A stretch of DNA of 64,000 nt, taken from Fimbriimonadales bacterium. Lineage in GTDB: Bacteria > Armatimonadota > Fimbriimonadia > Fimbriimonadales > GBS-DC. The DNA lies in the NCBI GenBank assembly GCA_025998675.1, contig AP024673.1, positions 1,763,221-1,827,220 on the forward strand, read 5' to 3'. This document shows positions 866 to 37,480 of the stretch, piece after piece. The notes below the pieces were generated by a model that saw only the letters and a program-made list of their open reading frames with translations, had not been told where the DNA came from and ran no database searches. The first letter of the stretch is position 1; each line of letters begins with the position of its first letter. The position numbers and the translations under genes are program-made.

Positions 866-1644
866 AGCGCGGTGCTGAGCGCGTCGCACAGGGTCGGGTC
901 GTCGCCAATCACCGCCACGGGCGGGCGCGACGGCGCAGGGTAGCCCGTGCGCGGGTCGAGAATGTGCCCGTAGCGGACGCCGTTCACCTCGAAAAACTGC
1001 TCGGCGTCGCCGGATACCCCCAGCGCGGCGTCGCGCAGTAGGATTTCGCTCCCGTCGGGCAGGCGCGTGCGCCAGCCGTCGGCGCCCATCGGCGCGCCCA
1101 GCGCGTAGAGCGTGCTGCCGCCCGCGTCTACGAGGGCGCTGGGAACTCCCAGCTGCCGCAGTATCCGCACGCACTGCGCGACCGCCCAGCCCTTGCCAAT
1201 CGCGCCGAAACTCAACTCAACGCCCCGCAGCGCGTAATAGACCCAGCAGCCGTTCGGCTCCAGCAGCACCAGCTCCATGCCCACGCGCTCCAGCGTCTCG
1301 GCAATAGTGTCGGGGTCGGGCGCGCGGTACTGTTTGTCCACAAAGCCCCACAGGCGTAGCAGGGGCGTAATGGTCGGGTCGAACGCGCCTTGCGTGAGCG
1401 CGTGCAACGACTGGCAGGTCTGCAGGAGCTGAAACAGTTCAGGCTCCACGCGCACGGGATGCAGGTGCGCGTGGGCGTTCAGGTAGCACAGGTCGCTGTC
1501 GGGCAGGTAGAGGCTGAGCTGGCGTTCGAGGCGGCGCGTCTCCTCCTGTAGCTCGCCAGCGACGCCCGCCGCCCAGTGCGCCTCGCCCTCAGGCAGGTAG
1601 AGTGTGAACTCTGTGCCCATCGCGCGCCAGCGGAAGTGGTGCAT
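778..1644 (-). CDS. ApbE-like FAD:protein FMN transferase
   Basis: This family moves FMN from FAD onto a Thr of a target protein such as Rnf/Nqr subunits. The 288-residue product begins MHHFRWRAMGTEF, the usual ApbE opening. It has ELSFGAIGKGWAVAQ, VDAGGSTLYALG, the HILDPRTGYP metal/FAD site and LCDALSTALY. I see no lipoprotein signal, so it may act in the cytoplasm. The last ~30 residues are read antisense to kdsB and look unlike family C-termini, so the C-terminus may be altered. The start at 1644 is preferred over upstream in-frame starts because homology begins at once. Confidence 0.88.
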   Translation of the reverse strand: MHHFRWRAMGTEFTLYLPEGEAHWAAGVAGELQEETRRLERQLSLYLPDSDLCYLNAHAHLHPVRVEPELFQLLQTCQSLHALTQGAFDPTITPLLRLWGFVDKQYRAPDPDTIAETLERVGMELVLLEPNGCWVYYALRGVELSFGAIGKGWAVAQCVRILRQLGVPSALVDAGGSTLYALGAPMGADGWRTRLPDGSEILLRDAALGVSGDAEQFFEVNGVRYGHILDPRTGYPAPSRPPVAVIGDDPTLCDALSTALYIEPALESIVRTRCRSVSVSTAMDGLGK

Positions 1645-1700
1645 CGCGGGGATTGTACCCTGCTTCTGGGCTATCGGGTATCCTGTCGGGGGAGGCGACG

Positions 1701-2672
1701 ATGCGTGTCTGGGTACTGTTGGGGGCGTGCTGGCTGCTGATTGCATGCCAGCCGAGGCAGGTGGAGAATGGGAGCGGCGAATGGGTTCCCCGTCTGCGTG
1801 TGGTCGAGCGGGCGCCCACGCATGAGACCGTGCGCTACGAACGCGACCGAGTGCCCCTGTACGCCGAGATTTATCGCCCTGCAGGCAAGCGTCGCGCGCC
1901 GTCGGTGGTGTTGCTGCCCGGGGGCTTTGTGGGCGTGAACGCCAGTCATCGGGCGACGGCGCGGCGACTGGCGCAGGCGGGCTACCTGGTCGCGCTGCCC
2001 CACATGCGCGGGCAGGGCAAAAGCGGAGGCGTCATCGACTTCGGGCTGGAGGACGCGGTGGATGTGCGCGGACTTGCCCGTGCGCTCGCGCAGGTCGGCG
2101 GCGACGGCAGGTACGCCTATGTGGGCGTCTCGCTCGGCGGGGCAATCGCGATTAACGCCGCCCGCAACGACTCGCAGGCGCGCGGAATCGTGTGCGTGCT
2201 GTCGCCCGTGGACTTCCGCGAACAGCGACAGATGCTGGTCAACTACGGACGCACTGAGCGTGCGGAGCGCTGGGACGCATGGAAGGGTGGCTCGCCCGAA
2301 TCGTGCCCCGAATGCTGGGACGCGCGCGACCCTCTGAAGCATGTGCGTGAGGTGCAGGCGCCCATCGTGTTCATTCAGGCAGGCGAGGATGTGCTGATTC
2401 CCGTGTCGCAGGCGTGCCGCTGGCGCGCGACCCGTCAGGAGATGGGGCGCAGGGTCCACACCGTCGCGCTCACCGACGATGGCAAACCCTGGCGCGGCAG
2501 CCTCAAGGAGCGCCAGCAGTGCGCCCTGCCGTTCACAGGCTGGGGCGACCTGCGCGAAGACCATCTGGTCTTTTTCCCCAGCCTCCCCCACCGCGCCAAC
2601 GACGCCATCTGGGAGGTTGCGCTGAAAGCGCTCGCGCGCTGGTTCGAGCAGGAGGCGGCGCGTGATTCGTGA
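1701..2672 (+). CDS. Lipoprotein alpha/beta hydrolase (dienelactone hydrolase/peptidase-like)
   Basis: The 323-residue protein starts with a lipoprotein signal (MRVWVLLGACWLLIAC; lipobox LIAC), so it should be membrane-anchored outside the cytoplasm. The mature part is an alpha/beta hydrolase: LLPGGFVG as oxyanion-hole loop, GVSLGGA with the nucleophile Ser, AGEDVLIP as likely acid, and a late EDHLVFF His. The PHMRGQGKSGG segment is typical of dienelactone hydrolase and S9-like folds. Start 1701 follows GGAGG at good spacing. It overlaps the next gene by 11 bases, implying an operon. Substrate unknown. Confidence 0.8.
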   Translation: MRVWVLLGACWLLIACQPRQVENGSGEWVPRLRVVERAPTHETVRYERDRVPLYAEIYRPAGKRRAPSVVLLPGGFVGVNASHRATARRLAQAGYLVALPHMRGQGKSGGVIDFGLEDAVDVRGLARALAQVGGDGRYAYVGVSLGGAIAINAARNDSQARGIVCVLSPVDFREQRQMLVNYGRTERAERWDAWKGGSPESCPECWDARDPLKHVREVQAPIVFIQAGEDVLIPVSQACRWRATRQEMGRRVHTVALTDDGKPWRGSLKERQQCALPFTGWGDLREDHLVFFPSLPHRANDAIWEVALKALARWFEQEAARDS

Positions 2673-3750
2673 AACGCACCAGCAGCGCGCGCTCGTGGCG
2701 CACGCTCCACGCGAGTCGGACGAACGGTTCCGCTGGGTGGAGGTGTTCCGCGGGCTGGCGATTCTGGAGGTGGTGTTTCATCACACTTCGGGGCGATTTC
2801 TGGGCATGCTGGATCGCGAGGGGCTTGCGTGGCTAATTCTGGCAGTGCTGAACCGCACGCTCCACTATGCCGTGCCCGCCTTCCTGATGATGACCGCGCT
2901 GGTGCTGATGGCGGCGCTCCTGCGCCAGTTTCGCCTGAAACGGTATGCGACCAACCGCGCCCTGCGCGCGCTGCTGCCCTACCTGCTCTGGAGCGGGGTC
3001 TATCTGGCGTATCGGTACTTCGCGTTCGGCGCGCCGCCCGACTGGTCGCGCTGGGCGGACTACCTCTTCTGGGGCAAGGCGTACTTCCACCTCTACTTTC
3101 TGGCGGTGGCGATGCAACTCTACCTGCTGTTGCCGCTGGTGTTGCCTCTGGCGCGCAGGCGTCCGCCGTTCTGGGCAACGCTGATAGCCATCGTCGCGCT
3201 CACGATGGGCGTCTACTGGTTCAATCGGCTGGGGTATCGCCTGCCCTACACGGGCAGCTTTGTGCTGTGGTACACGCCTGTCATCCTGCTGGGCGTGTGG
3301 TTGGCGACGCAGGTGGATCGAATGGAAATAGTGCTGCGTCGGGGCTGGCTGCTGGCGCTGGGGGCGACGATCGGGGGGCTGTGGCTCTATCTACCGCTCG
3401 CACTGGACGCGCTCCGGGGGCAGGCGGTGAACACTTTTCAGTATCAGGTGGGCAACTGGCTCTTCACGGCAGGGGTGAGCTTCCTACTGTTGGCGGTCGC
3501 GTACTGGCTGAGTCGTCGGGAGGGGCGGCTTGTGGCGGTCGTGGGGACGCTGGGGCGCTACTCGCTGCAGATTTACCTGCTGCACCCGCTGGTGCTGGCG
3601 GAGCTGGCGCGCTGGGGGCTGGCGAGCGCGTTTCAGGCGCGTTTCGGGCTGCCGCTGTTTTTCCTGTTGGGGCTGCTGGTGCCGTTCGCGCTGGGGTGGC
3701 TCATCGCGCGTGCGCCGCGCGTGTCTACAGCGATTTTCGGACGCGCCTAA
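2662..3750 (+). CDS. Acyltransferase 3 family integral membrane protein
   Basis: A 362-residue, strongly hydrophobic protein with about ten predicted membrane segments. The N-terminal FRGLAILEVVFHHTSGRF matches the acyltransferase 3 (OafA/NodX-type) signature, in which the His is catalytic. Such proteins acylate sugars of exopolysaccharide, O-antigen or peptidoglycan. It starts with GTG inside the end of the hydrolase gene, and the GGAGG at 2651-2655 serves it. Pairing with a lipoprotein hydrolase suggests envelope modification, which is inference. Confidence 0.8.
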   Translation: MIRETHQQRALVAHAPRESDERFRWVEVFRGLAILEVVFHHTSGRFLGMLDREGLAWLILAVLNRTLHYAVPAFLMMTALVLMAALLRQFRLKRYATNRALRALLPYLLWSGVYLAYRYFAFGAPPDWSRWADYLFWGKAYFHLYFLAVAMQLYLLLPLVLPLARRRPPFWATLIAIVALTMGVYWFNRLGYRLPYTGSFVLWYTPVILLGVWLATQVDRMEIVLRRGWLLALGATIGGLWLYLPLALDALRGQAVNTFQYQVGNWLFTAGVSFLLLAVAYWLSRREGRLVAVVGTLGRYSLQIYLLHPLVLAELARWGLASAFQARFGLPLFFLLGLLVPFALGWLIARAPRVSTAIFGRA

Positions 3751-4727
3751 CCCAGCAGCAGCGCGAGCAACGCCTTCTGCGTGTGCAGGCGGTTCTCTGC
3801 CTGATCCCACACCGCCGATTGCGCGCCATCCAGCACTGCATCGGTAATCTCCTCGCCCCGTCGCGCGGGCAGACAGTGCAGCACGATGGCGTCGGGTTTG
3901 GCAAGGCGCAACAGCGACTCGTTGACCTGATACGGCAAGAACTTGCGCATGCGCGCCTCGCGCTCCGTCTCGAAGCCCATCGAGACCCACACATCGGTGT
4001 AGATGGCGTCGGCGTCGGCGACCGCCTCGCACGGGTCGTGCGTTAGCAGGACAGCGCCGCCCGACTCGGCGGCGAACGCCTGCGCCTGCTGCAGAATCTC
4101 CGCACGCGGCTCGTACCCCTCAGGCGCGGCGATACGCACCGTATGCCCCAGCAGTGCCGCAAGCAGGGTGAAACTGTGGCACACATTGTTGCCGTCGCCC
4201 ACCCACGCCAGCGTCAGCGGCGCGTCGCCCTTGCGCTCCTGAATCGTCATCAGGTCCGCCAGCGCTTGGCAGGGATGCTCGCGGTCGCTGAGCGCGTTCA
4301 CAACGGGCGTCTCCGCAAAGCGCGCAAGTTCCTCCAGCGCGGTATGCAGGAACACCCGCGCAATTACGCCCTGCACCCAGCGCCCCAGATTGCGGGCGAT
4401 GTCCATCACCGCCTCGCGCGTGCCCATCTGGATGTCGCTCTGGGTCAGGTAGACGCCGTGCGCGCCCATCTGATACAGCCCCACCTCCAGCGTCACGCGC
4501 GTGCGCAGCGACGGCTTCTCGAAAATCAGCGCAACAGCGGTCGGACGCGCGAAGCGGAACAGCTCCTGCCCCTGTCGGGTCGCGCGTTTCATCGCGTGCG
4601 CCAGCGCCAGCACCGTCTGCGCCGTCTCGCGGTTCAAATCGCCTATCGATAAGGAATTGCGCGGCGGGTTCGCCGCCTGCCACCGCGCTTTCGCCTGCTC
4701 GTAAGTCATCGCTTCACGCATCAGCAC
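3747..4727 (-). CDS. argF: Ornithine carbamoyltransferase
   Basis: Transfers the carbamoyl group from carbamoyl phosphate to ornithine to give citrulline in arginine synthesis. Visible motifs: FEKPSLRTR (carbamoyl-phosphate loop), HPCQALADL, DVWVSMGFE (ornithine-binding SMG loop) and HCLPARRGEE with the catalytic Cys. That is the full OTCase set rather than aspartate carbamoyltransferase. A TACACT box lies six bases upstream of GTG 4727, predicting a leaderless message starting there; ATG codons at 4721 and 4709 are alternatives. The 3' end overlaps the convergent acyltransferase by four bases. Confidence 0.95.
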   Translation of the reverse strand: MLMREAMTYEQAKARWQAANPPRNSLSIGDLNRETAQTVLALAHAMKRATRQGQELFRFARPTAVALIFEKPSLRTRVTLEVGLYQMGAHGVYLTQSDIQMGTREAVMDIARNLGRWVQGVIARVFLHTALEELARFAETPVVNALSDREHPCQALADLMTIQERKGDAPLTLAWVGDGNNVCHSFTLLAALLGHTVRIAAPEGYEPRAEILQQAQAFAAESGGAVLLTHDPCEAVADADAIYTDVWVSMGFETEREARMRKFLPYQVNESLLRLAKPDAIVLHCLPARRGEEITDAVLDGAQSAVWDQAENRLHTQKALLALLLG

Positions 4728-4733
4728 CCGATG

Positions 4734-4739
4734 AGTGTA
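4734..4739 (-). promoter_or_regulatory. Predicted -10 box of leaderless argF
   Basis: On the minus strand TACACT is followed by six bases and then GTG. Transcription about seven bases downstream of the box would begin at the start codon. The same spacing recurs at several other genes in the window. Confidence 0.55.
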
Positions 4740-4772
4740 CCTGAGGGCGTTCGAAGACCGCCGCGTCTGCGC

Positions 4773-5924
4773 CTACGAGCCAGTCTGCGCCATCTCGCGG
4801 ATCTGTTGCACAATCTCTACCGCGTTCCGACGCAGGTTGCTTGCCGACAGCGCCTGTCCCTCCGCGCGCCCGAACCCGCAGTGCGCCAGGTCGTTGCGCA
4901 CATCACGCACCCTGCTCCAGAGCTTTGTCAGGGGGTCGCTCGCATGGCGCTTTGCCCGCTCGTTTAGCGCGTCCTCTGCCGCCTGACGCTGATCCGGGGG
5001 TAGCATCTGCTGATGCAGATAGTAGCTGATGACCCACTCGCGCGCCAGCAGCACCGCCTGCGCCACATGGTTGTTCTCGAAGTACCACTGTATCAGCGCA
5101 GCGTGTGTGGCTAAGGCGTTTTCCTGAAACGGCTGGTAGGCTGCTGCCATCCTGTCGAGCAGGGGCGCGAGCGGCCGCGCCCACTGCTGCACCTCTGCCT
5201 GCGCCTGTTGCTTCTGTTCCGTGAAATTGCGGATGGTCTCTGGAAGTCTCGGAATGCGCGTCAGCAGCAGGCTCTCGGAGACTTCCCCCGCTGCGTTACC
5301 GAAGTTTTTGAGCGTGCGCGGCAGGTTCTCGGAGCCGCCCCCTTGCTCGCGGTACGCGATGTTCTGCACCTGCTCCGAGAGTCGTCCCAACTCGCGCGCG
5401 TCGCCCGTCGCGATGAACATCTTCGCGGCGGCGAGCCAGTCCAGCAACGCGGCGAAGGGCGTCAGGTCGAACACGGGCGCCACATTGTTAGCATCCCGCG
5501 CCTCGTATGCCCCATACAGCACATAGCGCACCTGCACGCCCTTGACCTGCTTCAAATACGCTATCGTGAGCATCGCAATCATCGGCAGTGAGCGGAACCC
5601 ATGCGTGATGTCGAACGCGATTTCGTCCCCCTCCTGCACAACCTCGCAGATGGCGTCGAAAATATCCCACAGCTCGGCTTCACTGCGTCCATCAGGGATG
5701 TCGACTGCGCGGACTTGCGTGCACGGCTCCAGACGCAGGCGCAGGGCATCCCAGTGTTTCGCGCGTGCGCCCTGAGTCAGTACAATACAGGTCTCCTCGG
5801 GCTGCAGCCAGTGCGCAAACGCCTCCTGAACATATTCTGTGTCGTAGTCGCTGCCGTTCCAGCGGTAGATTGCGCGCTGATAGCCTTGCAAGCCGCCAGT
5901 GCCCAGAAACGCCAGTAGTTTCAT
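4773..5924 (-). CDS. csx2: CARF-HEPN protein, Csx2/Csx1/Csm6-like ancillary ribonuclease
   Basis: A 383-residue protein with an N-terminal Rossmann-like CARF domain (LAFLGTGGLQGYQRA; DITHGFRSLP at 105-114, the DxTHG motif of the TIGR02221/TIGR02549 families) and a C-terminal helical HEPN domain with RNDLAH at 343-348 (R-X4-H nuclease motif). In type III CRISPR systems such proteins are RNases switched on by cyclic oligoadenylate. No Cas10, Cas effector or CRISPR array is visible within the window. The start follows GGGGAGG. It lies 46 bases upstream of argF on the same strand, but argF has its own promoter. Confidence 0.87.
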   Translation of the reverse strand: MKLLAFLGTGGLQGYQRAIYRWNGSDYDTEYVQEAFAHWLQPEETCIVLTQGARAKHWDALRLRLEPCTQVRAVDIPDGRSEAELWDIFDAICEVVQEGDEIAFDITHGFRSLPMIAMLTIAYLKQVKGVQVRYVLYGAYEARDANNVAPVFDLTPFAALLDWLAAAKMFIATGDARELGRLSEQVQNIAYREQGGGSENLPRTLKNFGNAAGEVSESLLLTRIPRLPETIRNFTEQKQQAQAEVQQWARPLAPLLDRMAAAYQPFQENALATHAALIQWYFENNHVAQAVLLAREWVISYYLHQQMLPPDQRQAAEDALNERAKRHASDPLTKLWSRVRDVRNDLAHCGFGRAEGQALSASNLRRNAVEIVQQIREMAQTGS

Positions 5925-6252
5925 GCCAGTTGCCTCCCCATCATGAAATGAGTACCTGATGGATTCTGTGTGCAGTAGCCGCCTCCTGCCAGTGAATTGC
6001 CCCCTAATCCGCGTAAGAGTTGTCAGTTATTTTCGGCGCGCGCAACTTTCGAAACGAGTCCGCAGATACGCACGGTGGAGCAGCTGCTGCGCGGCGAGGA
6101 ATTTGCGATTCCCAGCGCGGCGCTACCTTGGAGGATTCAGGCGGCGAAGCGGACAGCGCTTGCCAACCACCAGCCGAAGCTGGAACTATCAATCCATTCT
6201 AACCTCTGGCGTGCGGAAGCGGGGCTTTCGCACGCCAGAATCACACGCCGCC
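5925..6252. other. Intergenic stretch with a possible methylase remnant and a hairpin
   Basis: No intact gene is seen. In one plus-strand frame about 6059-6195 encodes IRTVEQLLRGEEFAIP and LPWRIQAAKR, resembling tails of some adenine-specific DNA methylases. It has no upstream body and looks like a relic, but this is weak. A near-perfect palindrome (about 6206-6238, CTGGCGTGCG/CGCACGCCAG) lies just beyond the end of the next gene. It resembles the GTGCGGAAGC hairpins elsewhere in the window. Confidence 0.35.
6206..6238. repeat. Palindromic hairpin (GTGCGGAAGC family variant)
   Basis: The arms CTGGCGTGCG and CGCACGCCAG enclose GAAGCG-type sequence. It is a diverged relative of the hairpins at 14611-14717, 50033-50064 and 57092-57144. 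It may also act as a transcription terminator for the leftward dockerin-like gene. Confidence 0.5.
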
Positions 6253-7050
6253 TTACGGGCAGGTCGAGCCGAACGCAAACAGCACCGTGAGCAGGTCGGC
6301 GTCGTCCACCACCCCGTCGCCGTTGGCGTCCGCGTCGGGGTCATCCGAGCCGAAGGCGAACAACACCTGCAGCAGGTCGGCGTCGTCCACCACCCCGTCG
6401 CCGTTCACATTGCCGAACACACCCGTGAAGCCGCCGCCATACGCTTCCCAGTCCATCGAGTCGACAACCGCTACAGCATTGAGTCCCTGAGCGCAAAACA
6501 GAAGTCCCTCCACGCGCAGGAAGTTGTTCGCGTCGCCGCCGTTCTCCTCGAACTGCAGGGTGACCTCCTGCCAGTTCGGGTCGTAGGGGTTGTTCTGGCA
6601 CTGAATGGGCGTTACGCGCGCCTGCAGCGTGCCCGCAAGGCGGGTAATCAGCACCTGAATTTCAGTGCCATTCAGATTGACCGTAATACACTGGTTCGGG
6701 TTCGTATCCGCAGACCAGCGGATAATCGCTTCGCTGGCGTTTTGGGAGACAACCGTACCGACAAGTGGTAGGTCGTAATTAATGCCCAAGTCGGGGAAAA
6801 GTTCCTGGACACTCAAGAGGAGATCTATCGCCAGTCCGTCGTTGTTCAGGTCTTGCAGGGTGAACTCAATCGGGTCAGACGCCGAGATATCGCCGCTCAA
6901 GCTAAGTGAGCCTGTGATGTTGTATTGTCCGCTGTTAAACTTCCAGTAGATTTTGCCGCCCTGTTCGAGGTTGGTGATAATCTGGGCGTTCGCGAGCGCG
7001 ATCAGCGCGCTCAGCGCTCCAAAAGCCAGTACCTTTCGTAGCATCCTCAT
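6253..7050 (-). CDS. Secreted protein with C-terminal dockerin-like Ca-binding pair
   Basis: The 265-residue product has a signal peptide (RKVLAFGALSALIALANA, likely cut after ANA) and a beta-rich, cysteine-poor middle of unknown function. Its tail holds two dockerin-like repeats, VNGDGVVDDADLLQVLFAFG and ANGDGVVDDADLLTVLFAFG. The D-x-N-x-D-G loops should bind calcium. Near-identical tails occur in the genes at 27460 and 45568. Start 7050 is set by an upstream GGAGG; a second in-frame ATG two codons later is possible. No cohesin was seen in the window, so the tail's partner is unknown. Confidence 0.8.
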   Translation of the reverse strand: MRMLRKVLAFGALSALIALANAQIITNLEQGGKIYWKFNSGQYNITGSLSLSGDISASDPIEFTLQDLNNDGLAIDLLLSVQELFPDLGINYDLPLVGTVVSQNASEAIIRWSADTNPNQCITVNLNGTEIQVLITRLAGTLQARVTPIQCQNNPYDPNWQEVTLQFEENGGDANNFLRVEGLLFCAQGLNAVAVVDSMDWEAYGGGFTGVFGNVNGDGVVDDADLLQVLFAFGSDDPDADANGDGVVDDADLLTVLFAFGSTCP

Positions 7051-17937: not shown

Positions 17938-18720
17938 ATGACGCAATCGCAACTGGAGACGCAGCCGACCGTGAGCGACGGCGCCGCCACGGAGTTCGTC
18001 GTGCGCGTGCGCGATGTGGTCAAGGAGTACCAGATGGGCAAACTGACCGTGCGCGCACTCGACGGCGTGAGCCTCGACATCTACCGCGGGGAGTACCTGT
18101 CGATTATGGGACCCTCCGGGTCGGGCAAAAGCACGCTGTTTAACATGATTGGCGGGCTGGACAAGCCGACCGCAGGCTCCGTGTTCATCGACGATGTGGA
18201 CATGGCGCAGCTCGACCCGCAGGAGCTGGCGTTTTTGCGCTGCCATCGGATTGGCTACATCTTTCAGACCTTCAACCTGATACCTGTGATGACCGCGCTG
18301 GAGAATGTGACGCTGCCGATGGTGTTCGCGGGTGTGAACGCCGACGAGGCGCGCGAGCGCGGCGTGGAGCTGCTCACGCTGGTCGGGCTGGGCGGACGCC
18401 TGCACCATAAACCCACCGAGCTGTCGGGCGGACAGCAGCAGCGCGTCGCCATCGCACGCTCGCTGGCGAACAACCCCTCCATCATCCTTGCCGATGAGCC
18501 AACAGGCAACCTTGACCTCAAAACGGGCAAGGAGATTATTGAGCTGCTCAAGCGGCTCAACAAGGAGCGCGGCGTGACGATTATTTCCGCCACGCACGAC
18601 CTCAAGATGCTCGACATCTCCGACCGAATCGTGTGGATACGCGACGGCAAGATCGAGCGTCTGGAGAAGCGCAGCGAACTCCAGCTCAAGGTCGGCGAGG
18701 TGGAAGGCGAAGCGGGCTGA
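17938..18720 (+). CDS. ABC transporter ATP-binding protein, LolD/MacB type
   Basis: A 260-residue ATPase with Walker A GPSGSGKST, Q-loop YIFQTFNLIP, signature LSGGQQQRVAIARS, Walker B IILADEPTGNLD and H-loop ATHD. The sequence is of the MacB/LolD/FtsE subclass, which works with FtsX-like permeases on lipoproteins, peptides or envelope remodelling. No permease is adjacent. An FtsX-like permease at 52194 could be a partner, but that is a guess. The stop overlaps the xerD start as TGATG. Confidence 0.9.
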   Translation: MTQSQLETQPTVSDGAATEFVVRVRDVVKEYQMGKLTVRALDGVSLDIYRGEYLSIMGPSGSGKSTLFNMIGGLDKPTAGSVFIDDVDMAQLDPQELAFLRCHRIGYIFQTFNLIPVMTALENVTLPMVFAGVNADEARERGVELLTLVGLGGRLHHKPTELSGGQQQRVAIARSLANNPSIILADEPTGNLDLKTGKEIIELLKRLNKERGVTIISATHDLKMLDISDRIVWIRDGKIERLEKRSELQLKVGEVEGEAG

Positions 18721-19610
18721 TGGACGCCTATATCGACGGGTTTCTACACTATCTGGCGCAGGAGCGGCAGGTCTCGCCCCACACCCTGAACGCCTACGCC
18801 GTCGACCTGCGCCAGTTTTGCGACTACCTGCGGCAGGCGGAGCGCACCGACCCTGCCGTGTGGGACGCGACGCTCTGGGATGGGTTTCTTCACTACCTGC
18901 GCCGCCGTTCGATGAGCGAGTCGAGCATCGCGCGCAAGCTCAGCGCGGCGCGGGCGTTCCTGAAGCACCTCTATCGGCGCGGCGTGCTGGATCAGGAGCC
19001 GCCCGACGCGCTGGAGGCGCCCCGCGTGCATCGCGCCCTGCCCACCACGCTCACCCCCCACGAACTGCGCCGCCTGCTGCTCCAGCCGCCACTGGACACC
19101 CCGCACGGACTGCGCGACCGCACGATGCTGGAGATGATGTATACCACAGGCATGCGCGTCTCGGAGCTGCTGGGGCTGACTCTGGAGCAGCTGAAACTCA
19201 GCGAGGGGCTGGCGCGTGTAGAGGGCAAGCGCGGACGCGAACGCTGGCTGCCCCTCACCGACGGCGCGGTCTACTGGCTGCAGCGCTACCTCAGCGAGGC
19301 GCGCCCCAAACTTGTCCGCGCCAAACGCCCCTGCAACACGCTCTTTCTGAACGACCGCGGCGCGCCGCTCAGCCGAATCGCCTTCTGGGGCAAACTCAAG
19401 GAATACGCCGCCTGCGCGGGAATCGAGAAAAACATCTCGCCGCACACCCTGCGCCATTCGTTCGCCGTGCATCTGCTCAGTGGCGGGGCAGACCTGCGCG
19501 CCGTGCAGGAACTGCTCGGACACGAGGACATCAGCACCACCCAGATTTACACGCAGGTCAGCCTCGACCGCCTCAAAGAGGTCTACAAAAAGTCGCATCC
19601 GCGGGGTTGA
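18720..19610 (+). CDS. xerD: Tyrosine recombinase XerC/XerD
   Basis: A 296-residue site-specific recombinase. The N-terminal SAM-like core-binding domain starts DAYIDGFLHYLAQERQVS. The catalytic domain shows the R-K-H-R-H-Y set: TGMRVSELLGL, GKRGRERWLPL, SPHTLRHSFAVHLL, LGHEDISTTQIYTQVS. Length and N-terminus match chromosome-dimer-resolving Xer proteins rather than phage integrases. The start overlaps the ABC ATPase stop. XerC versus XerD cannot be settled by eye; I favour XerD. Confidence 0.9.
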   Translation: MDAYIDGFLHYLAQERQVSPHTLNAYAVDLRQFCDYLRQAERTDPAVWDATLWDGFLHYLRRRSMSESSIARKLSAARAFLKHLYRRGVLDQEPPDALEAPRVHRALPTTLTPHELRRLLLQPPLDTPHGLRDRTMLEMMYTTGMRVSELLGLTLEQLKLSEGLARVEGKRGRERWLPLTDGAVYWLQRYLSEARPKLVRAKRPCNTLFLNDRGAPLSRIAFWGKLKEYAACAGIEKNISPHTLRHSFAVHLLSGGADLRAVQELLGHEDISTTQIYTQVSLDRLKEVYKKSHPRG

Positions 19611-28902: not shown

Positions 28903-29344
28903 ATCCCATGCGTCGGTACGGGCGCGGCAATCGCGCCCGTACTGCTGCATACTAAAAGCGCCGATGCAATCAGTTTTCAGCAGTCGCGCTATCCGCGCAT
29001 GGAGTGCCAAAGCGCAGCTTACACCAAATGCGCCGTCAGAGTTCGTTAATTACCGACGCCTGTAGCCCTCACCCCCTTTGTCCCCCTCTCCCAAGGGGTT
29101 GGGAGAGGGGGATAGCGCGTCGCGCAAGGCTTGCGCGGCTCCCCTCTCCCGCGCGGCGGGAGAGGGGCTGGGGGTGAGGGCAACAAAGCGTTCCTGTGTT
29201 GCTGCCCGCGCAGGATAATTACGAACTCTGACGCGCCGATTGGCATAACGTAAAGACACTTCACACACCCTGCATCGTACCAGCTGTGAATCTCAGCAGG
29301 ATATCCGACCCACGAATTATGGAATAACGCCGTCGGGGATTGGT
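28903..29344. other. Intergenic region holding repeat copy B
   Basis: No gene is evident. Most of it is the 230-bp element described separately. Outside it, 28913-28945 has a weak CGGGCGCGGCAATCGCGCCCG hairpin that could terminate the dockerin gene transcript. Confidence 0.5.
29019..29248. repeat. Dispersed inverted-end element, copy B (about 230 bp)
   Basis: The ends ACACCAAATGCGCCGTCAGA and the matching right end to ATTGGCAT are inverted. The core holds CCCTCACCCCCTTTGTCCCC and its complement GGGGGTGAGGG, with an additional nested hairpin (CCCAAGGGGTTGGGAGAGG). It is longer than copy A but built on the same plan. Confidence 0.75.
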
Positions 29345-29821: not shown

Positions 29822-31125
29822 CGCGCCCGCGCATGAGGTAGGCGACCTCCGCAATCGCCGCCAGCTGGAACGCGGCGACGCCCACCAGCAACGACGCCTG
29901 CACCGACTGCGCGCCCTGCGCACGCGCGAGCCAGACGCCGAGCGCCAGCCCCAGCGCGTTCACCAGCAGGTTGAGCGCCATGCCCCAGTAGACGGCGGCG
30001 GGCTGCTTCTGATGGATACGCACGCCGCGCAGGGTGGATCCATACGCTGTGAGCGCGGGCAACAGCAAACACGCCTGAAAGCCGAACACCGCGGGCAACG
30101 CCAGCTCCGCCCGCAGCGCCAGCAGTCGCTCGGTGAATAGCCCTGCCAGCGGCGTGAACGCCAGCAGCGCAAGCGCGAGCGTCGTGCCCAGCGCAACCTG
30201 ATGCGTGAACGCGAACAGCGCGCTTGTCGGAACGCCCTGTTGCAGCACGGCGACGCTCGGCCTCCTGCAGCGCGAAGCCCCAACTGCGCAACGCCAGCAG
30301 CGAGCCGAACACCACCTGCCACGAGGCGATTGCCAGCTCAGGCTGGGGCAACCGCGCCAGCGCCGCAGCGGTCAACGGATGCACCAGCAAGCGTCAAGCA
30401 GCGTCGTGCCCGCCAGCGGCAGGTGGAACTTCCAGATGGCGCGTTGAGTGAGCAGCGCGCCTCCCTCAGTGTGGCTCAGCACGCGCTCGCGCAGAATCGG
30501 CAGCGCGAACAGCGTCGCCACGAGCGCCTCCACGATGCACCCCCGCCATCACCATGCACGCGCCCACCACCGCGCCGGGCAACCCGTTCCACCAGAGTAG
30601 CCCCACACCCACCGCACGATGCTGTGCCAGCCGTATCGCCGTGCCCCAAGCTCACGAACCGCGCCCCGCCATAGCGCACCAGCACGCCCTGCAGAAACCG
30701 TCGCCAGCCAATCGCCGCCGTCCATAAGCAACATCACCTGCATCGCGACGCGCCCCGCCTCCGCCACCCGTTCGGCAACCCCAATACGTGCAGCGCAATC
30801 ATGTCATACAGAGCGGGTGAAGGCAATCAGGCGGTCAGCAGCGTGAGGCTCGACCATCAGCGTCAACACGAAGCGCAGCACCGCGATAAAACGACTCCCG
30901 CCCCTGCACCAGCGCAATCGCCGTCGCCAACAGCATAATCACGGGGCTTTCAATCAGCAGCGACAGCCCCAGCGCCACGCCGAACCCCGCTATCTGAATC
31001 GAAGGGTCTGAAAACCGCGCCAGCACCGCGTTCGTGGTGGGCGATTCCAGCATCATCAGGGTAAAACTCAACGCCAACGGAAACCAGACAGCAAAAATAG
31101 TGCGCTGGAGAACGCTCGCTTTCAT
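29808..31125 (-). pseudogene. Frameshifted polytopic membrane protein (MOP/ANKH-like flippase?)
   Basis: Starting at ATG 31125 the frame encodes membrane helices (FAVWFPLALSFTLMMLESP; LLIESPVIMLLATAIALVQG), then breaks. Continuing in alternating frames gives IAVLRFVLTLMV, RFLQGVLVRYG, LPGAVVGAC and, in an intact stretch 30248-29808, QACLLLPALTAYGSTLRGVR and QASLLVGVAAFQLAAIAEV. The pieces look like one multidrug/oligosaccharide-lipid/polysaccharide exporter-type protein, possibly of the ANKH branch. Several single-base indels separate them, for example an extra T near 30885. Whether these are real or consensus errors is discussed in the findings. Confidence 0.55.
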
Positions 31126-31145
31126 ACGCGCAGAATAGGATACCT

Positions 31146-32882
31146 CTAAGGCACCCCTTCCTGCTTGTACGCGGGGCGTGGAAAGCGTATCTTTATCGGC
31201 TGTCGGAACGGGGAATGCGCCAGCAGCATCTCCCCTTTCTCCAATCGCGTGAGGCTCATGCGGACATCGGCATCCAGCATGCGATACGCGGCGTCGGAGA
31301 GTTCCGTAGAGCCTGTGCGCCCGAATACATGGGTCGCGCAGTTGCCCACCACGCGCGGGTGAACCGCACTGCGAAACTGCTCAGCGCCAAACAGCACCAC
31401 GCCCAGCGACCGCCCGCGCTCCGCAATATCGAGAACCTGCTCTATAATCGGCGAGGCGCTCTCGCGAGGAGGAGCGTACTTATTCAGCTCGTCGACAAAG
31501 ATAATCACCTTCTCAGGAATCGTATCGCCAATCTCGGTTTCATCTGATTCGGCGTAGAGTGCGTAGATAGTGCGGAGAATATCGCCAAACACCAAGGTCT
31601 GCTCATCGTCGGTAAGCTTGGCGATGTCGACCACCACCACCTCACCGCCTCTGATTTTGGCAACCTCTTCCGACAGATTCACGGCGTTGCGGCTGCGCTG
31701 CTCCACAAAGATGCCCGATTGCCGCGTCTTCACGATGCGTCGCAGGAGGCGACGAAAACGCCCCACTGAAACGGCTCGAACATCTCCGATTTGCTGCGGT
31801 TGCCCGTTCTTAACCAGAGGCTCGCCGTTGAGAAGGTTATTCCATGTTGTTGCACGTTTGCCCATTTTCCCGATGGGTTGCCATGCTGGACACCGCCTAA
31901 GCCCTCGCGAATTTCGCCTATCAGCGAACCGATTGTATCGTGGGGGTCAGGGATTTGCGACATCAGCAGGTCGAGTTTGTCATAAGTATCTTGCAGGGAA
32001 TAGGCGTACATCCGCCAGTTCTGATTGGGAATGCTGAAACTGTTGGGCTTGCCATCACGGTCGGAGTGCTTCCCCCAAGGCAATAGGTAGCGCACCTCAG
32101 GGAAGGGTTCCGCCGTGCAGCCCCATCACTTCCCACATTTGGCGTGTCTCTGCATCGAGGTGTCGCCCGGCTCGTCGATGTGGAGCAAGTCGCCATGTTT
32201 GACATTCAACAGGATAACGGCTATCTTATCGCGGTCGGGGGCGGTCTGCAGGAGCGACTGGATTAAAAACATCGCATACGAGGTCTTGGTCGCCAGCCCA
32301 CTGATGCCCGAGATGTTCAGATGCGCGCCCTTCGGGTCCGAGCAGGTAGCGACGGTCTAAGTACACCACCGCCTGCTCGCCGTTGGACATTTGGATTATG
32401 CCTGCGGGCCACGCGGTGCCCCTCAGGGATGCTGTCGATGCCCAACGCGCGGTGGATCCCTGCAGCGATCGGCGAATCGCACAGGGGAGTCGTTCGGCGC
32501 GGGCATGTAGATGTCCTCGCTGTTGGAAAGCACCACCGCGCGTGCGACCGTTGTCCCCTGACGCGGCGTGTTCGCCTCGACATCCACCGAGCCAAAGTCG
32601 TTGGCAATAAAGTTCGATAGGTGCGACGCGGCGTCGGTGCTATGCTCCAGCGTAATCACGATGCCGTAAGTCTGACTCCTGCGATCGCGTGTTGCGCTAA
32701 CTTGATCGGTCTCCACGATGTCAAACGGGTTCACAATCACGCTCGGCTCCAGCCAGAAATAGAACTGCTCGGAACTGCTCGGCTGGTTCGCCGTCGCCGA
32801 GACGCGCCCGATAGTCTTTTCCTGTGTCGGCTGCGTTCCGTTCGTCGAGAGCGGCTGTTGTCTGAATCGCTTGCGGTTCCAT
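31146..32882 (-). pseudogene. herA: HerA-like ATPase/translocase, multiply frameshifted
   Basis: The gene starts at ATG 32882, three bases after the nurA stop. Following the protein across frames gives TIGRVSATANQPSSSEQF, FWLEPSVIVNPFDIVET, GISGLATKTSYAMFLIQSLL (Walker A variant), ILLNVKHGDLLHID, VIIFVDELNKYAP (Walker B) and FGAEQFRSAVHPRVVGNCAT (arginine-finger region). That order is HerA. About seven single-base changes break it, mostly extra bases in short homopolymers (near 32820, 32471, 32406, 32329, 32095) plus missing bases near 32155 and 31835. HerA pumps DNA to NurA nuclease in DNA repair or defence complexes. Confidence 0.78.
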
Positions 32883-32885
32883 AGT

Positions 32886-34023
32886 TCACCTCCATCGAAG
32901 CGCTTGCCGTATCACTTCACGGCTCAAGAGATGATTTTGCACATAGCGTTCGGCGAGGAAAATCGGGTAGAGGTGGGCGTGCCAGCGCTCGGTCTACACC
33001 GTGCGGGGTCGCGTTGCGCTCCGCTATCAGCGCACCCGAGAGTTGGTCTATAAGTGCCGAATCCACTGGCTTCTTGGAAGGGTTGATCAGCTCCACTTTA
33101 ATCACGCCCATCAGGGGGTAGTCTATCTGTCCCTTGGGGGCGCAGGCGCATGATACCAGAACAGCTACCTTGCCCTCGCGTGCGCCGAATACGGTCGTGC
33201 GATGCCATGTGTCCAGCTTCGCCAGCAGGCGGTGCAGCGCTGTACCGTTCCTGCTGCGCGCACGGCGACCAACGGCGAATTGGGGATCCTTGCGGAAGTT
33301 TTTCGCCACACCAATCAGCCGCGTGGATTTCGGATCATTCGCGCTCATACTCGACTCAGCAACGTTGGCGAACATTGCAGCGAGCCGTCCACTACGAGCC
33401 ATTCGTCGCTGTTCAGGGCTGTCAATCGCTCCTGCGCCAACTGTACCTCCAACTCGTGCATTTTGTAGCGCACCTTGTTTTGCGCCAGCAGGCGCAAGTC
33501 GGGCGTGCGGCTCTGGGTCAGCTCGTCCGTTTCTTGCAAGATTGACCACCTCTACACCCTTGGCGTGCGCGGTTTGCAGTAGGGTCTCCTGGACTCCTTC
33601 CGAAACAGCGTCCATTGCCAGCAAGAGATAGGGTTTTACCTCTCTTCGCACGGGCTTGACGCTGCCGTCATCGTTCCGTTCGATTTGGCACGCGCCAATC
33701 TGGGCGAACAGCACAGGCGTTTCGCGGTCATGCTCCAGCAGGTTGCCCAAAAAGTAGCTGCGATAGGAGCCGTCCTGAAAATAGCGGTACAGATGCCATT
33801 GGGTGCGTGGAATCGGCTGCAGGGGGCGACACAGGTCTTTTGCGTTTGTTTCCCAGTTCGCTTCGAACAGTTTTTCGTTGCCCCCCAAGATTTGCTCCAC
33901 GCGCTCGTCCGCGTCGGGTCGCTCCTCCTCTTGCAGTGCCCCACCAACCGCAGGTAACACATCGACCTGCTTTGCCAGGGCGCGCATCGCTTCTCGCACC
34001 GCCTCAATCGTCGGATTGGTCAT
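32886..34023 (-). pseudogene. nurA: NurA-like nuclease, multiply frameshifted
   Basis: ATG 34023 lies 20 bases inside the upstream methylase gene. The N-terminal part is intact and has FQDGSYRSYFLG, the first metal-binding Asp of NurA. The second Asp motif DEWLVVDGSL is in another frame (33345-33539). Downstream pieces include LRPQGQIDYPLMGVIKVELI and ERWHAHLYPIFLAERYVQ, the normal NurA C-terminus, ending at TGA 32886-32888. The parts are in the correct order, so this is one gene broken by at least six single-base indels. An uninterrupted but chimeric 368-codon frame exists because two shifts cancel. Confidence 0.78.
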
Positions 34024-37000
34024 GGTTCGCCTCCGAATCGCCTGAGAGAATTTGCAACGCTTGCCGCACAGCCTTCAACTCATCTGGGGTCAGCCCCCAC
34101 AACTGCGCGGCGCATTGGTCGATTTCAGCCTCTACCTCGCGCAACTGCCGACGCGCCTGTCTCTGCGACACCCACTGCTGCAGATCCTCAGAAAGCGTTT
34201 CCGTCTGGGATTGTTGGAGCAGAAACTGTTCAATCTCCTGCTCCAACTGAGGGGTGAGTTTCACTTCATCCGCGTCATCCTCCGAGTACGCGTGAATCGC
34301 TTGCGTGCAGCGATGCGCTTCCTGCGACAACTCCGCCAAACGCCGATGCAACGCATTCTGCGGGTCATAACGCGGAATGCGGATGTGTTCAAGGATGTGA
34401 GGGTCTCCGAAACTCTTTCCTCCCTCTTGTGAATAGGCACGTGCAGTAAAGTTGGCACACTGAGAATTGATCAGTGCACAAACATAATGCGCTTCCTCTG
34501 CAGATTGACAATCGACCAAAGTGACGATATGTTGGGGAACTATAACTTTGCCATCTGATTCGCTAACTACGGCAGCGTTCAATTCCGAAGCGATGTTTGG
34601 CCACACCACCTTCCACGGGGCGAAGGTGTAGGTATTGATGTCCATCATCCCATAGAACTCGCGCTCGCGTTTACTGAGTATCTGCTTATATCCGCTGCGT
34701 TGACGCAACTCTTTTTCAAACTGCTTCAGGTAGGCATAGGCTTTGGGATAGTCCACTTGCAGTCGGTCTTCTGGGTAGGCGCGATTGGGCTGGCTGGGGT
34801 CTTGGGGCACGAGTATCCATGCGCTGGGTCGGGCGTGCCAGCGTTGCACATCGCGTCCACGCAACAGGGGATAGAGCAATTCTGGCTCCAGAGGATTCAC
34901 GACCTCTTTCACTTTTCGCTTCGCGCCCTCGGTGAGGTTGCGCATCAGCCACAGCCCATCGGGGCGCTCCATCTGCTTCTCCAGCCAATAGACCGAGTTC
35001 GCCCCACCAGAATTCACTCCTAAATGCGCCTCATAATCAGCGTTGCCCATCACCTTGCGAATGGCTTTCAGGGCATTTTGAGGCACGGTGAGCCACTGGG
35101 AAGTAGGGGCGTTGGGCTGTGCGGGTTCGGCGAACCATGGGTGGCGCGTGGTGGCGTCTTTTACCTCGCCCAGCGTGCTGGTGTAGGTGAATCGTGCGTC
35201 GCGTTTCTTGCGCCACAGCGTGTACGAGACGGGGTAGCGGGTCGGTTGCCCTTTGAGCAGCACCAGCACTGCCGTGCGGTTGCTTGCGCCCTCGAAGGGG
35301 TTCAGGTCTACCATGTCCTCTACAAGCAGCACTTTGAGCGGTGTGCCACCGGGCAGGATGAAGCGTCGGAACCCTGCGCCTGCCGCGGTTTTGAACAGGC
35401 TTTGGGTAATCACGAAGCCGAGTTTGCCATTCGGTTTGAGCAGTTTATCGGCGACGACGAGGGTCATCAGCGCGGAGAAGTCGCCTTTGACCGCGCCCAG
35501 TCGCGCCCCGCCGGACTGTGGCGGAAGTTTATATTGCTCCCAAAGTTTTCGAATCGAGTCGCGATAGTTATCGGGCAAGTGTTCCCAGTTAATCCATGGC
35601 GGGTTGCCCACGATGTAGTCGAACTGCCCGACGGTGAGCGGTGCGAAGTTATTTTTCAGGATGCGCGCCCACAGTCCGTTCAGCCCTCGTTGGTGCAGTT
35701 CGAGCATGCGCTGATAAGTTTCGCGGAGGGGTTCGTAGTCTATACCCGTCGGGGATTGACTGAGCATTTTTGACACCCGCTGGAGGAACGCCTCCGCAGG
35801 CACTTCCGATAAAACACACTCCTCCATCATATCGCACAGGCGGTTGAAATGCGTGGGGGTGCAGAGCGCGGTCGGGATCTGGAACTCCCCGACCGCGGTT
35901 CGGAACAAGTACACGCTGCCCTTGAACATATCCGTACTGAAAGCAGGCATCAGCACCGAGTCGGCTAAGTAGACAGGCACGCTCAGATCGCCTTTGCGGT
36001 ACGGCAGCAGGTCGGCAATCGCCAGCAGGTAGTTCACCCGCGCCGTAAGCACCGCCAAGGGGTTGATGTCGAACCCCACCACATTCCGCGTGATGGCTTC
36101 CAGCAACTCTCCCTCGGAGAGTGCCGGTTGCAGATTGCGTTGCAGTTGCATCAAGCGGCGCAGAATCAGCACTAAAAAGGTGCCCGAGCCGCAGGCGGGG
36201 TCTAAAAAGCGCGTCTGAAGGACTTTTTGGCGCAGAGTGCGCTCGTTGGGCTGTGAGGAATCTGTAAACAGGGTGTTGTCCATTTGCCTCAGGAGCCGTT
36301 CTGCCAGCCAGTCAGGTGTGTAGTATTCGCCCAAGTTGTGGCGCACCTCGCGTGGCAACAGGTAGTGATAAAGTTTTTTGAACAGGTCGCGTGTCTCCTC
36401 AGGCACCAGTGTCAGGGTGGTGGGGTCGTAGTGGCTCAGTTGCTGCAACAGCAGACGAATGCCTCTCTCAATATCGGCGTTCCACGCCCGTAGATACCAT
36501 GAGAAAAAGTCCCCTTCCAATAGGTTTTGGATTCCGATTTGTCGGAACAGGTCGCCCGATTCGATTTTTTGGAGTTCCTCTTGCAGCGCGTCAGAAGGCA
36601 GCGCGGCGAGTTGTTCGTAGCTGTGTACGCCCACTTTGTCCAGCAGGGCACGCATCACGGCTAACCGCGCGATGAGCTTCGCGAGCAGTGCGAAATAGGT
36701 GTGCAGTACAAAGAAAAACTGTTCCGCCTCATAGGCAGATCGGATGTCGAACCCTGCCTTTCGCGCCCATTTTTGCAATTGTTCTAATTTGCCCCCGCCG
36801 AAGGCTTCCGAGTAGTCAATGGCTTCGCTGAACAGGATGCGCCACTGCTCGAACAGCTTGCTCACCAGCGAGTCCGTATCCTGTGTTGCCTGTTGGAGTC
36901 CCGTGTAGAGTGCCTTCAGCGTCTGTTGGGTGCGATACTGTTCGATTCCGAAATCGCGGGCGAGGTTGTCGGCGGTAAGTGCAACGCCCGAAGCCAGCGC

Positions 37001-37468
37001 CGTGAGCCAAGTGAGCATGCGTTCCAGGTTCTCTATCGACACAGGCTGTGGGGCTTCCGCCGTGAAGGCGCCATCCACGAACCGCGCGAAAATAATAAAG
37101 CGCCCGTCAAACACCACGCCGGCGACACGGTGCACCTCGTGCCGCTCCTTCTGAGCCAAGTCGCTCAGGTAGTCTCGGAGTTGTTTTATGGCTTGCTGGG
37201 TGGCACTGTGATTAGAACGATCGGAGAGGACATCGGGACGCTTATATTCAATCACGAAGCGATTAAACACGGCGTCGGCGCGCCCCGAAGCGAGGGTGAC
37301 TTCTAAGCGTGGAGGGGGAAGTAGATGCGCTTCCGCGTGGAGGAACGCCTCCAGTTGCCTTTCAATTACGGCACGCAGCTCGGCTTCTTTAGGATTGTTC
37401 GGCAAAATCGCGTCGATTGCCGTTTTGAGCTTCTCCGCCGCATTGCGAATGTGAGCTTCATCATGCAT
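34004..37468 (-). CDS. Type IIG-like restriction enzyme/N6-adenine DNA methyltransferase
   Basis: A 1,154-residue fused protein. The N-terminal PD-(D/E)XK-like nuclease site is GRADAVF...VIEYKRP with D65, E74 and K76. A helical connector follows, then an Eco57I-type methylase core with FLDPACGSGTF (motif I, about residue 421) and VGNPPWINWEH (motif IV, NPPW, about 621). The rest, with LLRGRDVQRWHA, is a target-recognition-like region ending in a coiled segment. It is intact, unlike its two downstream partners. Lower GC than the housekeeping genes suggests transfer. TATTAT at 37475-37480 lies six bases before the ATG, predicting a leaderless operon message. Confidence 0.85.
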   Translation of the reverse strand: MHDEAHIRNAAEKLKTAIDAILPNNPKEAELRAVIERQLEAFLHAEAHLLPPPRLEVTLASGRADAVFNRFVIEYKRPDVLSDRSNHSATQQAIKQLRDYLSDLAQKERHEVHRVAGVVFDGRFIIFARFVDGAFTAEAPQPVSIENLERMLTWLTALASGVALTADNLARDFGIEQYRTQQTLKALYTGLQQATQDTDSLVSKLFEQWRILFSEAIDYSEAFGGGKLEQLQKWARKAGFDIRSAYEAEQFFFVLHTYFALLAKLIARLAVMRALLDKVGVHSYEQLAALPSDALQEELQKIESGDLFRQIGIQNLLEGDFFSWYLRAWNADIERGIRLLLQQLSHYDPTTLTLVPEETRDLFKKLYHYLLPREVRHNLGEYYTPDWLAERLLRQMDNTLFTDSSQPNERTLRQKVLQTRFLDPACGSGTFLVLILRRLMQLQRNLQPALSEGELLEAITRNVVGFDINPLAVLTARVNYLLAIADLLPYRKGDLSVPVYLADSVLMPAFSTDMFKGSVYLFRTAVGEFQIPTALCTPTHFNRLCDMMEECVLSEVPAEAFLQRVSKMLSQSPTGIDYEPLRETYQRMLELHQRGLNGLWARILKNNFAPLTVGQFDYIVGNPPWINWEHLPDNYRDSIRKLWEQYKLPPQSGGARLGAVKGDFSALMTLVVADKLLKPNGKLGFVITQSLFKTAAGAGFRRFILPGGTPLKVLLVEDMVDLNPFEGASNRTAVLVLLKGQPTRYPVSYTLWRKKRDARFTYTSTLGEVKDATTRHPWFAEPAQPNAPTSQWLTVPQNALKAIRKVMGNADYEAHLGVNSGGANSVYWLEKQMERPDGLWLMRNLTEGAKRKVKEVVNPLEPELLYPLLRGRDVQRWHARPSAWILVPQDPSQPNRAYPEDRLQVDYPKAYAYLKQFEKELRQRSGYKQILSKREREFYGMMDINTYTFAPWKVVWPNIASELNAAVVSESDGKVIVPQHIVTLVDCQSAEEAHYVCALINSQCANFTARAYSQEGGKSFGDPHILEHIRIPRYDPQNALHRRLAELSQEAHRCTQAIHAYSEDDADEVKLTPQLEQEIEQFLLQQSQTETLSEDLQQWVSQRQARRQLREVEAEIDQCAAQLWGLTPDELKAVRQALQILSGDSEANHDQSDD

Positions 37469-37474
37469 AACTCT

Positions 37475-37480
37475 ATAATA
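37475..37480 (-). promoter_or_regulatory. Predicted -10 box of the leaderless methylase-nurA-herA operon
   Basis: TATTAT, six bases (AGAGTT), then ATG 37468 on the minus strand. There is no Shine-Dalgarno. It matches the spacing of other leaderless starts here. Confidence 0.5.

Follow-up and report, generated by a model that had tools for sequence, protein, structure and literature searches.

What purpose is served when a restriction-modification enzyme, a NurA-like nuclease and a HerA-like translocase are encoded one behind the other? Three such genes lie on the minus strand, between positions 37468 and 31146, of a 64,000-nucleotide stretch of DNA (the window) from a Fimbriimonadales bacterium of the phylum Armatimonadota (GenBank assembly GCA_025998675.1, contig AP024673.1, positions 1,763,221 to 1,827,220 of the forward strand). 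A preliminary description of the window took the trio for a candidate defence system, in which the methylase marks self DNA and HerA-NurA shreds unmodified DNA, and recognised no named system in it. The last point is superseded: the trio is that of the published tdt operon of the Thermus element ICETh1 (PMC5365140). Judged by its sequence, the window carries an Armatimonadota version of the tdt-type, 'cut and pump', operon. The trio is kin to a gene-sharing machine that is already known, rather than a new immune system, although a role in defence keeps some probability. By analogy with Thermus, DNA donation would be the most likely role in this bacterium too, and we give it about an even chance.

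Comparison with the tdt operon of Thermus

The operon of ICETh1 in Thermus thermophilus HB27 is described as comprising TTC1877, which encodes the type IIG enzyme Tth111II/TthHB27I (1106 amino acids), TTC1878, encoding a NurA-like protein (377 amino acids), TTC1879, encoding TdtA (568 amino acids), and TTC1880, encoding an N4/N6 methylase (410 amino acids). The four genes are co-transcribed, and ICETh1 is likewise of low GC (guanine plus cytosine) content (PMC5365140). TdtA, some of which is recovered with the cell envelope, forms a hexameric ATPase and is required for the donation of DNA (transjugation). Donation is undetectable in tdtA mutants and is reduced by 4-5 orders of magnitude in nurA mutants and by about 3 in type IIG mutants (PMC5365140); the fourth gene is reported to have only a minor effect on transfer (PMC7767461). 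In the model proposed for Thermus, the type IIG enzyme cuts or nicks the DNA, and TdtA and NurA start from the cuts (PMC5365140, PMC7767461).

T. scotoductus DSM 8553 is named as a carrier of a tdtA-like cluster (PMC5365140). Its locus, L010 in our set, encodes the trio in the tdt order, with proteins of 1103, 376 and 562 amino acids, and the products of the window are identical to them at 57% (methylase), 41% (NurA) and 71% (C-terminal part of HerA) of positions. The T. scotoductus genome holds one strong operon-type HerA and one weaker, core-like HerA. The likeness of the window operon to that of ICETh1 covers gene order, protein sizes, low GC content and the subfamily of the enzyme. It differs from the published operon (PMC5365140, PMC7767461) in its phylum, in having no fourth gene, no integrase beside it and no tRNA (transfer RNA) attachment repeats, and in that its nurA and herA are frame-broken in the assembly. 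In nine of the related loci described below, a gene for a methylase of 405-431 amino acids directly follows herA, in the place of the fourth gene.

Gene layout and composition

The type IIG gene (34004-37468) is an open frame of 1154 amino acids. The nurA gene (32886-34023) starts at 34023 and overlaps it by 20 bases, and three bases separate the nurA stop codon (32888-32886) from the start at 32882 of the herA/tdtA-like translocase ATPase gene (31146-32882). The spacing between nurA and herA is identical in the intact copy of the operon in the relative HRbin15. The GC content of the operon is 57.6%, compared with 63.6% for the rest of the window, and is matched or undercut in 2 of 116 same-size sliding windows, those that overlap the operon included. 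The overlap, the three-base gap and the lower GC content had all been noted before and are confirmed here, as are the identities of the genes and their order, type IIG-nurA-herA, on the strength of profile matches, motifs and a predicted fold. The overlap and the spacing would fit co-transcription of the trio. A scan for sigma-70-type promoters gave no match upstream of 37468; this is weak evidence and does not refute the single promoter proposed for all three genes in the preliminary description. The earlier view of the trio as an operon stands in that the genes are real and in the order given, and needs correction in that nurA and herA are not open in the assembly; the idea of a functional operon holds. 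The corrected operon mentioned in that description hints that the breaks had been noticed, though they are not stated there.

The type IIG enzyme

By its sequence the enzyme is TspDTI-like. Its matches include the Pfam families Eco57I (1.3e-11), MmeI_Mtase and N6_Mtase and the PADLOC families REase_II (1485 bits) and REase_MTase_IIG (1257 bits). The proposed PD-(D/E)XK N-terminus and N6-adenine methylase core were both found, the former as a PD-(D/E)XK-type motif, D65-x8-E74-x-K76, the latter with DPACGSG at 423 and NPPW at 622. The signatures given for the TspDTI subfamily are a DPACGSG S-adenosylmethionine motif, an NPPW motif and an N-terminal nuclease motif D-x8-E-x-E/K (PMC3384240). With the members TspDTI, Tth111II/TthHB27I and TsoI (PMC3384240, PMC3751577) the window enzyme shares the order of nuclease and methylase, the DPACGSG and NPPW motifs and a length of about 1100 amino acids. 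It carries D-EXK, whereas the characterised members have an atypical D-EXE; D-EXK is reported in other homologues (PMC3384240). Enzymes of this subfamily are marked by cutting 11/9 bases downstream of an asymmetric site and by m6A on one strand. By analogy with TspDTI, the nuclease and methylase would be followed by a helical linker and a C-terminal target-recognition region.

The type IIG gene of HRbin15 contains an in-frame insert of 229 amino acids (L017:1935-2621), made up of a domain like DUF559 endonucleases (2.7e-34) and a tail of low complexity. In KatS3mg016 the gene (L016:8001-10215) begins the same insert before its contig ends; the insert is absent from the window gene. The genome to which the window belongs also encodes a second TspDTI-like type IIG enzyme, 61% identical, which has no adjoining nurA or herA (G000:C1, about 1959900-1972200; L007:1388-13697). 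This second copy sits on a 12.2-kb segment between two copies of tRNA-Gln (87-base repeats, 95% identical), along with a tyrosine integrase beside the first tRNA-Gln, a primase/AAA gene and a ParB-N6/N4 methylase fusion. The segment is an apparent tRNA-borne integrative element.

NurA and HerA

The product of the nurA-like gene is clearly predicted to have the RNase H-like NurA fold. The structural model of the HRbin15 protein (predicted local distance difference test score, pLDDT, 83) has Deinococcus radiodurans NurA as its best Foldseek match in the PDB (7f6d_G, E 6.4e-12). The resemblance by sequence is weak: an alignment of intact relatives matched the D. radiodurans protein in the PDB at E 5.4e-4, the Pfam NurA family left the HRbin15 protein unmatched and gave one homologue 17 of 21 bits, below the cut-off, and two intact NurA proteins matched no PADLOC model at 0.01.

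HerA is more readily identified, the alignment of intact relatives matching D. radiodurans HerA at E 5.5e-57. The Walker A region of the family, NISGISGLATKTS, is close to that of D. radiodurans HerA, and its Walker B motif is FVDELNKYAP; NISGISG-ATKTSYA, in the Walker A region, and DELNKYAP are common to the operon protein and D. radiodurans HerA. In the latter, the Walker A lysine and threonine are located at the nucleotide, and the ATPase activity is low and is raised by manganese (PMC9960219). The unusual Walker A region is not a sign of inactivity, because D. radiodurans HerA is an active ATPase with it. The D. radiodurans proteins (PDB 7f6d; PMC9960219) are the closest solved homologues of both, with a near-identical Walker A region and the same NurA fold; they differ in being a repair pair, and their sequence similarity to the operon proteins is distant.

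Frame breaks in nurA and herA

The frame of nurA is broken in the assembly from about 33529 onwards, and that of herA is broken as well. The breaks lie in an indel-rich stretch, about 30258-33529, that spans the whole of herA together with portions of nurA and of an adjacent gene for a membrane protein. Intact operon copies are present in relatives. When the window is compared with the intact operon of HRbin15 (L017: methylase 216-4214, nurA 4195-5316, herA 5320-7044, the last encoding 574 amino acids), 19 insertions and no deletions are found from 33529 to 31855, and 16 of the insertions change the frame. The substitutions in the same comparison keep an excess at third codon positions (27 of 39 changes in the 3' part of herA). 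The membrane-protein gene is open in four relatives (437-454 amino acids), and between 30887 and 30258 the window differs from each of them by 8-9 small insertions and by two deletions of a single base. In the nearest relative, JP3_11, which is 99% identical, the contig stops at about 33535, where the damage in the window starts. Since the damage also hits the neighbouring gene and starts at the JP3_11 contig end, the stretch is probably a local sequence fault of the assembly rather than a trace of decay.

The alternative is that the two genes have really decayed to pseudogenes in this strain, only a stand-alone type IIG enzyme being left. The 16 frame-changing insertions agree with it. So do the existing stand-alone relatives of the methylase, including the second copy in this genome, and the herA of Thermus altitudinis (L012:12470-14162), which is also split, into two overlapping frames of 344 and 221 amino acids. 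The restriction of the length changes in nurA and herA to insertions, the leaning of substitutions towards third codon positions, as in a gene under selection, the similarly damaged neighbour and the end of the JP3_11 contig speak against it; true decay was rejected on these grounds as the main explanation of the breaks, and we hold a decaying operon to be improbable.

Distribution and phylogeny

Relatives of the methylase were collected from one genome per species in a scan seeded by peptide patterns of the window protein, which favours near relatives; 83 were found and 80 kept. With profiles built for this analysis, nurA, herA or both were found near the methylase in 21 of the 80 loci, and both in 13 of the 48 loci that have at least 4 kb of sequence downstream. 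The counts are inflated by near copies (L010 and L011; L020 and L023) and by one contig that appears twice (L013 and L134). Seven phyla are represented among the loci with both genes: Deinococcota (Thermus), Armatimonadota, Chloroflexota, Bacteroidota (Kapaibacterium), Aminicenantota, Caldifarciminota (WOR-3) and Bacillota. On one deltaproteobacterial contig herA stands before the methylase. The preliminary description had allowed that the gene order might be unique to this contig; its recurrence across phyla places it beyond chance.

In a tree of the methylases, from which frames shorter than 900 amino acids were dropped, all 22 trio-associated rows fall inside one supported clade of 29 rows. 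Some of the labelled rows have only nurA or only herA, the contig ending there. The seven unlabelled rows of the clade include three with about 1 kb or less downstream (L027, L034, L062), one doubtful case with 1.7 kb (L015), and three without the nurA-herA pair (L029, L041 and the second copy of the genome itself). The trio label changes 8 times on the tree (at least 7 by the starred branches), compared with a mean of 17 in shuffles, none of 500 shuffles being as low.

Of 18 genomes of the window's family, 14 have a core HerA and 4 the operon HerA, a count that takes in the broken copy of the window. Across the phylum, operon-type HerA was found at E 1e-150 in 7 of 291 genomes, not counting the window's, and nurA and methylase sequence adjoin it in six of the seven. 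Because the operon HerA is patchy and the core HerA family-wide, the behaviour of the operon is accessory and not that of a housekeeping unit. In the seventh genome (G081; L135, 348-8134) the operon-type HerA (727 bits, part of the profile) lies directly behind type III CRISPR RAMP genes; Pfam RAMPs were matched in three genes and Cmr3 in one, and no methylase or nurA was found in the 13 kb examined. The operon contigs of two genera of the window's family, L129 (G006) and L131 (G020), are identical over 6438 bases except one, the result of either a recent transfer or a misbinned contig.

Mobile elements and neighbourhood

In the relatives examined no clean empty insertion site was seen; the two flanks fall on separate contigs there, and other genes adjoin the one for the membrane protein. 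A dispersed repeat of about 200-230 bases, with many further copies in the genome at 81-87% identity, occurs in the window at about 29016-29261. A plasmid search gave six records for T. scotoductus HerA, all below 31% identity, and none for its NurA.

Phage records gave two distant HerA matches, each with nurA beside it and no methylase in the stretch examined. A scan of viral contigs gave two loci, one with the whole four-gene operon. The latter (L169:1349-8997) carries the type IIG gene, nurA, herA and the second methylase; IMG/VR classes its contig, of 42.6 kb, as viral. A different gene set accompanies the pair on other contigs. The phage-classed L168 (454-6730) encodes NurA, HerA, an Hsp90/gyrase-type ATPase (HATPase_c_3, 2.3e-10) and a protein weakly like radical-SAM proteins (below cut-off); the phage-classed L170 (3811-10580) resembles it by eye, and L167 belongs here in part. 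In Marinitoga camini virus 1, nurA-herA is accompanied by a similar last protein that the opposite strand encodes.

Inserted and flanking genes

In 20 loci nurA lies behind the methylase. Between the two genes there are 732-3527 bases in 11 of them and no such interval in nine (eight by coordinates, and L026 by tblastn). The inserted genes, or cargo, include one for a PemK/MazF-like toxin (3.8e-32) in L013, an AAA_21 ATPase with DUF4276 in L049 and, the DUF4276 being below its cut-off, in L024, a BrxD-like AAA protein in L018, DUF3800 in L024, and a PIN-like protein just under the cut-off in L019. By eye, L022 and L025 resemble the AAA/DUF4276 loci, and L020 and L023 have sets similar to that of L019; the stretch in L061 holds only open reading frames (ORFs) that may not be genes. 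Genes for toxins, for AAA/DUF4276 proteins and for PIN proteins often occur in loci of toxin-antitoxin systems or of defence. Cargo in this position keeps open a defence or addiction role.

The flanks of 13 trio loci, two Thermus loci and the cargo being left out, contain 94 ORFs. Seventeen PADLOC families were matched at E 1e-10 by one ORF each, as raw counts with no background rate; the best match is a Mrr-type type IV restriction enzyme (1.6e-90). The best 25 of 72 Pfam families in the flanks, likewise without a background rate, are mostly of metabolic, transport and tRNA-synthetase genes. An earlier Pfam/PADLOC count over 137/139 flanking and inserted ORFs (best 25 of 141 and 25 of 95 families) was dominated by UvrD-like helicases of Thermus, two Thermus loci being situated among YidC-, GltX- and UvrD-type genes.

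Known systems were compared as well. HerA-DUF4297 and other HerA anti-phage systems (PMC11291478; DndH and related, PMC10853773) share a HerA ring and a nuclease with the operon and differ from it in the nuclease, which in the operon is the RNase H-like NurA and not DUF4297. A named HerA anti-phage system was rejected, the window's C-terminal HerA fragment scoring 16 of 800 bits with NCBIfam HerA_antiphage (NF042943). MADS and BREX were rejected too: the operon has weak profile matches to mad2/mad8 and PglX, and the methylase is far below the curated cut-offs (MAD2, 19 of 720 bits; BREX-2 PglX, 58.7 of 400); this judgement concerns the methylase, companion genes in the genome not having been searched for.

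Function of the operon

Donation of DNA, as in Thermus, is favoured by analogy with the published operon and its knockouts, through the trio of T. scotoductus and the fourth methylase of nine loci; the clustering on the methylase tree, the patchy distribution and the lower GC content point the same way. The type IIG enzyme would bind an asymmetric site and methylate it, and at a fraction of sites would nick or cut a fixed distance away. A TdtA-like HerA hexamer and a NurA dimer would load on the DNA ends; HerA would pump the duplex by ATP hydrolysis, and NurA would trim the ends. The DNA would then leave the cell, as it does on its way from a Thermus donor to a competent neighbour. The mode of loading and the destination of the DNA in this bacterium are inferred by analogy. 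The methylase may mark self DNA while HerA-NurA shreds unmodified DNA, as the preliminary description had it; as the restriction enzyme has a nuclease domain of its own, it is more likely that HerA-NurA acts on the ends which the enzyme makes.

Several observations weigh against donation. Signs of an integrative and conjugative element are missing here: no tRNA gene was found in the window, and the one integrase-like ORF detected there (18633-19610) is about 12 kb from the operon, which has no integrase next to it. Among 16 homologous loci, with two tyrosine-integrase queries and no background rate, L018 alone gave an integrase nearby and L046 alone a tRNA, which lies 321 bases past its fourth gene. 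The fourth methylase was not found behind herA in the window, nor in two Thermus loci or the Armatimonadota copies with sequence behind herA. The trio does not appear to be one unbroken unit, the tree implying at least seven gains or losses of its label. The link to TdtA itself was made not with the HB27 sequences but by way of T. scotoductus, along with the sizes and families published for the genes. A gene of the competence family PF03772 is present in the genome; its presence says little, the family being matched in 10 of the 14 genomes used as controls, E. coli and Corynebacterium included, and does not discriminate. In the literature covered, donation by such an operon has been tested in Thermus only. 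Finally, the toxin- or defence-like genes inserted elsewhere fit defence or addiction as well or better.

The strongest competitor of donation is defence against invaders, which we regard as possible but less probable. The type IIG enzyme would methylate the cell's own sites and cut unmethylated incoming DNA, NurA-HerA would degrade from the cut ends, in some loci with a backup effector cassette between the parts, and donation in Thermus would be a later use. The enzyme does belong to a bona fide restriction-modification family (PADLOC REase_MTase_IIG; PMC3384240), HerA-nuclease pairs act against phage elsewhere (HerA-DUF4297, PMC11291478), the intervals of 0.7-3.5 kb between methylase and nurA include toxin- and defence-like genes, and the four-gene copy L169 is on a contig classed as viral. 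However, the published genetics on the operon concerns donation (PMC5365140), and neither a phage-resistance test of the operon nor a report of the trio as a defence system was found in searches of the open-licence literature. The flanks of the trio loci give no clear defence-island signal in the raw counts, the HerA_antiphage score of the window's HerA fragment is far too low, and for TsoI the methylase activity is described as dominant, with a role other than restriction suggested (PMC3751577).

A role in double-strand-break repair or end resection, like that of archaeal and Deinococcus NurA-HerA, with the type IIG enzyme as a passenger, has the closest solved proteins, those of D. radiodurans, in its favour. 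We consider it very unlikely, for the genome has a separate core HerA (a 686-amino-acid frame, G000:C1:1737203-1738876) and a further NurA-like match elsewhere, and it is the core HerA that is family-wide and the operon copy that is patchy. The Thermus mutants argue in the same sense: loss of tdtA caused no clear defect in repair (heat, p 0.678; ultraviolet light, p 0.038), while loss of the core-type homologue did (PMC5365140).

Donation and defence may also be two settings of one widely shared 'cut and pump' chassis, in which a slot behind the type IIG gene and ahead of nurA accepts exchangeable effectors. The enzyme would make ends at its sites and the NurA-HerA ring would load on them; cargo and setting would decide, lineage by lineage, between export to neighbours, degradation of an invader or both. 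Contact-dependent donation like that of Thermus would on this view be present in Armatimonadota, Chloroflexota, Aminicenantota, Bacillota and others, or defence could be converted into it there. This extension is offered tentatively.

Implications

What had been taken for an unknown defence system is, on this comparison, related to a machine for gene transfer that has already been published, and the tdt module of Thermus is found to be spread over at least seven phyla. The toxin- and defence-like cargo between the halves of the operon is a lead that is absent from the Thermus accounts, as far as the portions covered go (PMC5365140, PMC7767461). Two questions become accessible to experiment: does transjugation also serve to donate DNA in other phyla, and do cells use a restriction-modification enzyme joined to a NurA-HerA pump to share DNA, to destroy it, or both?

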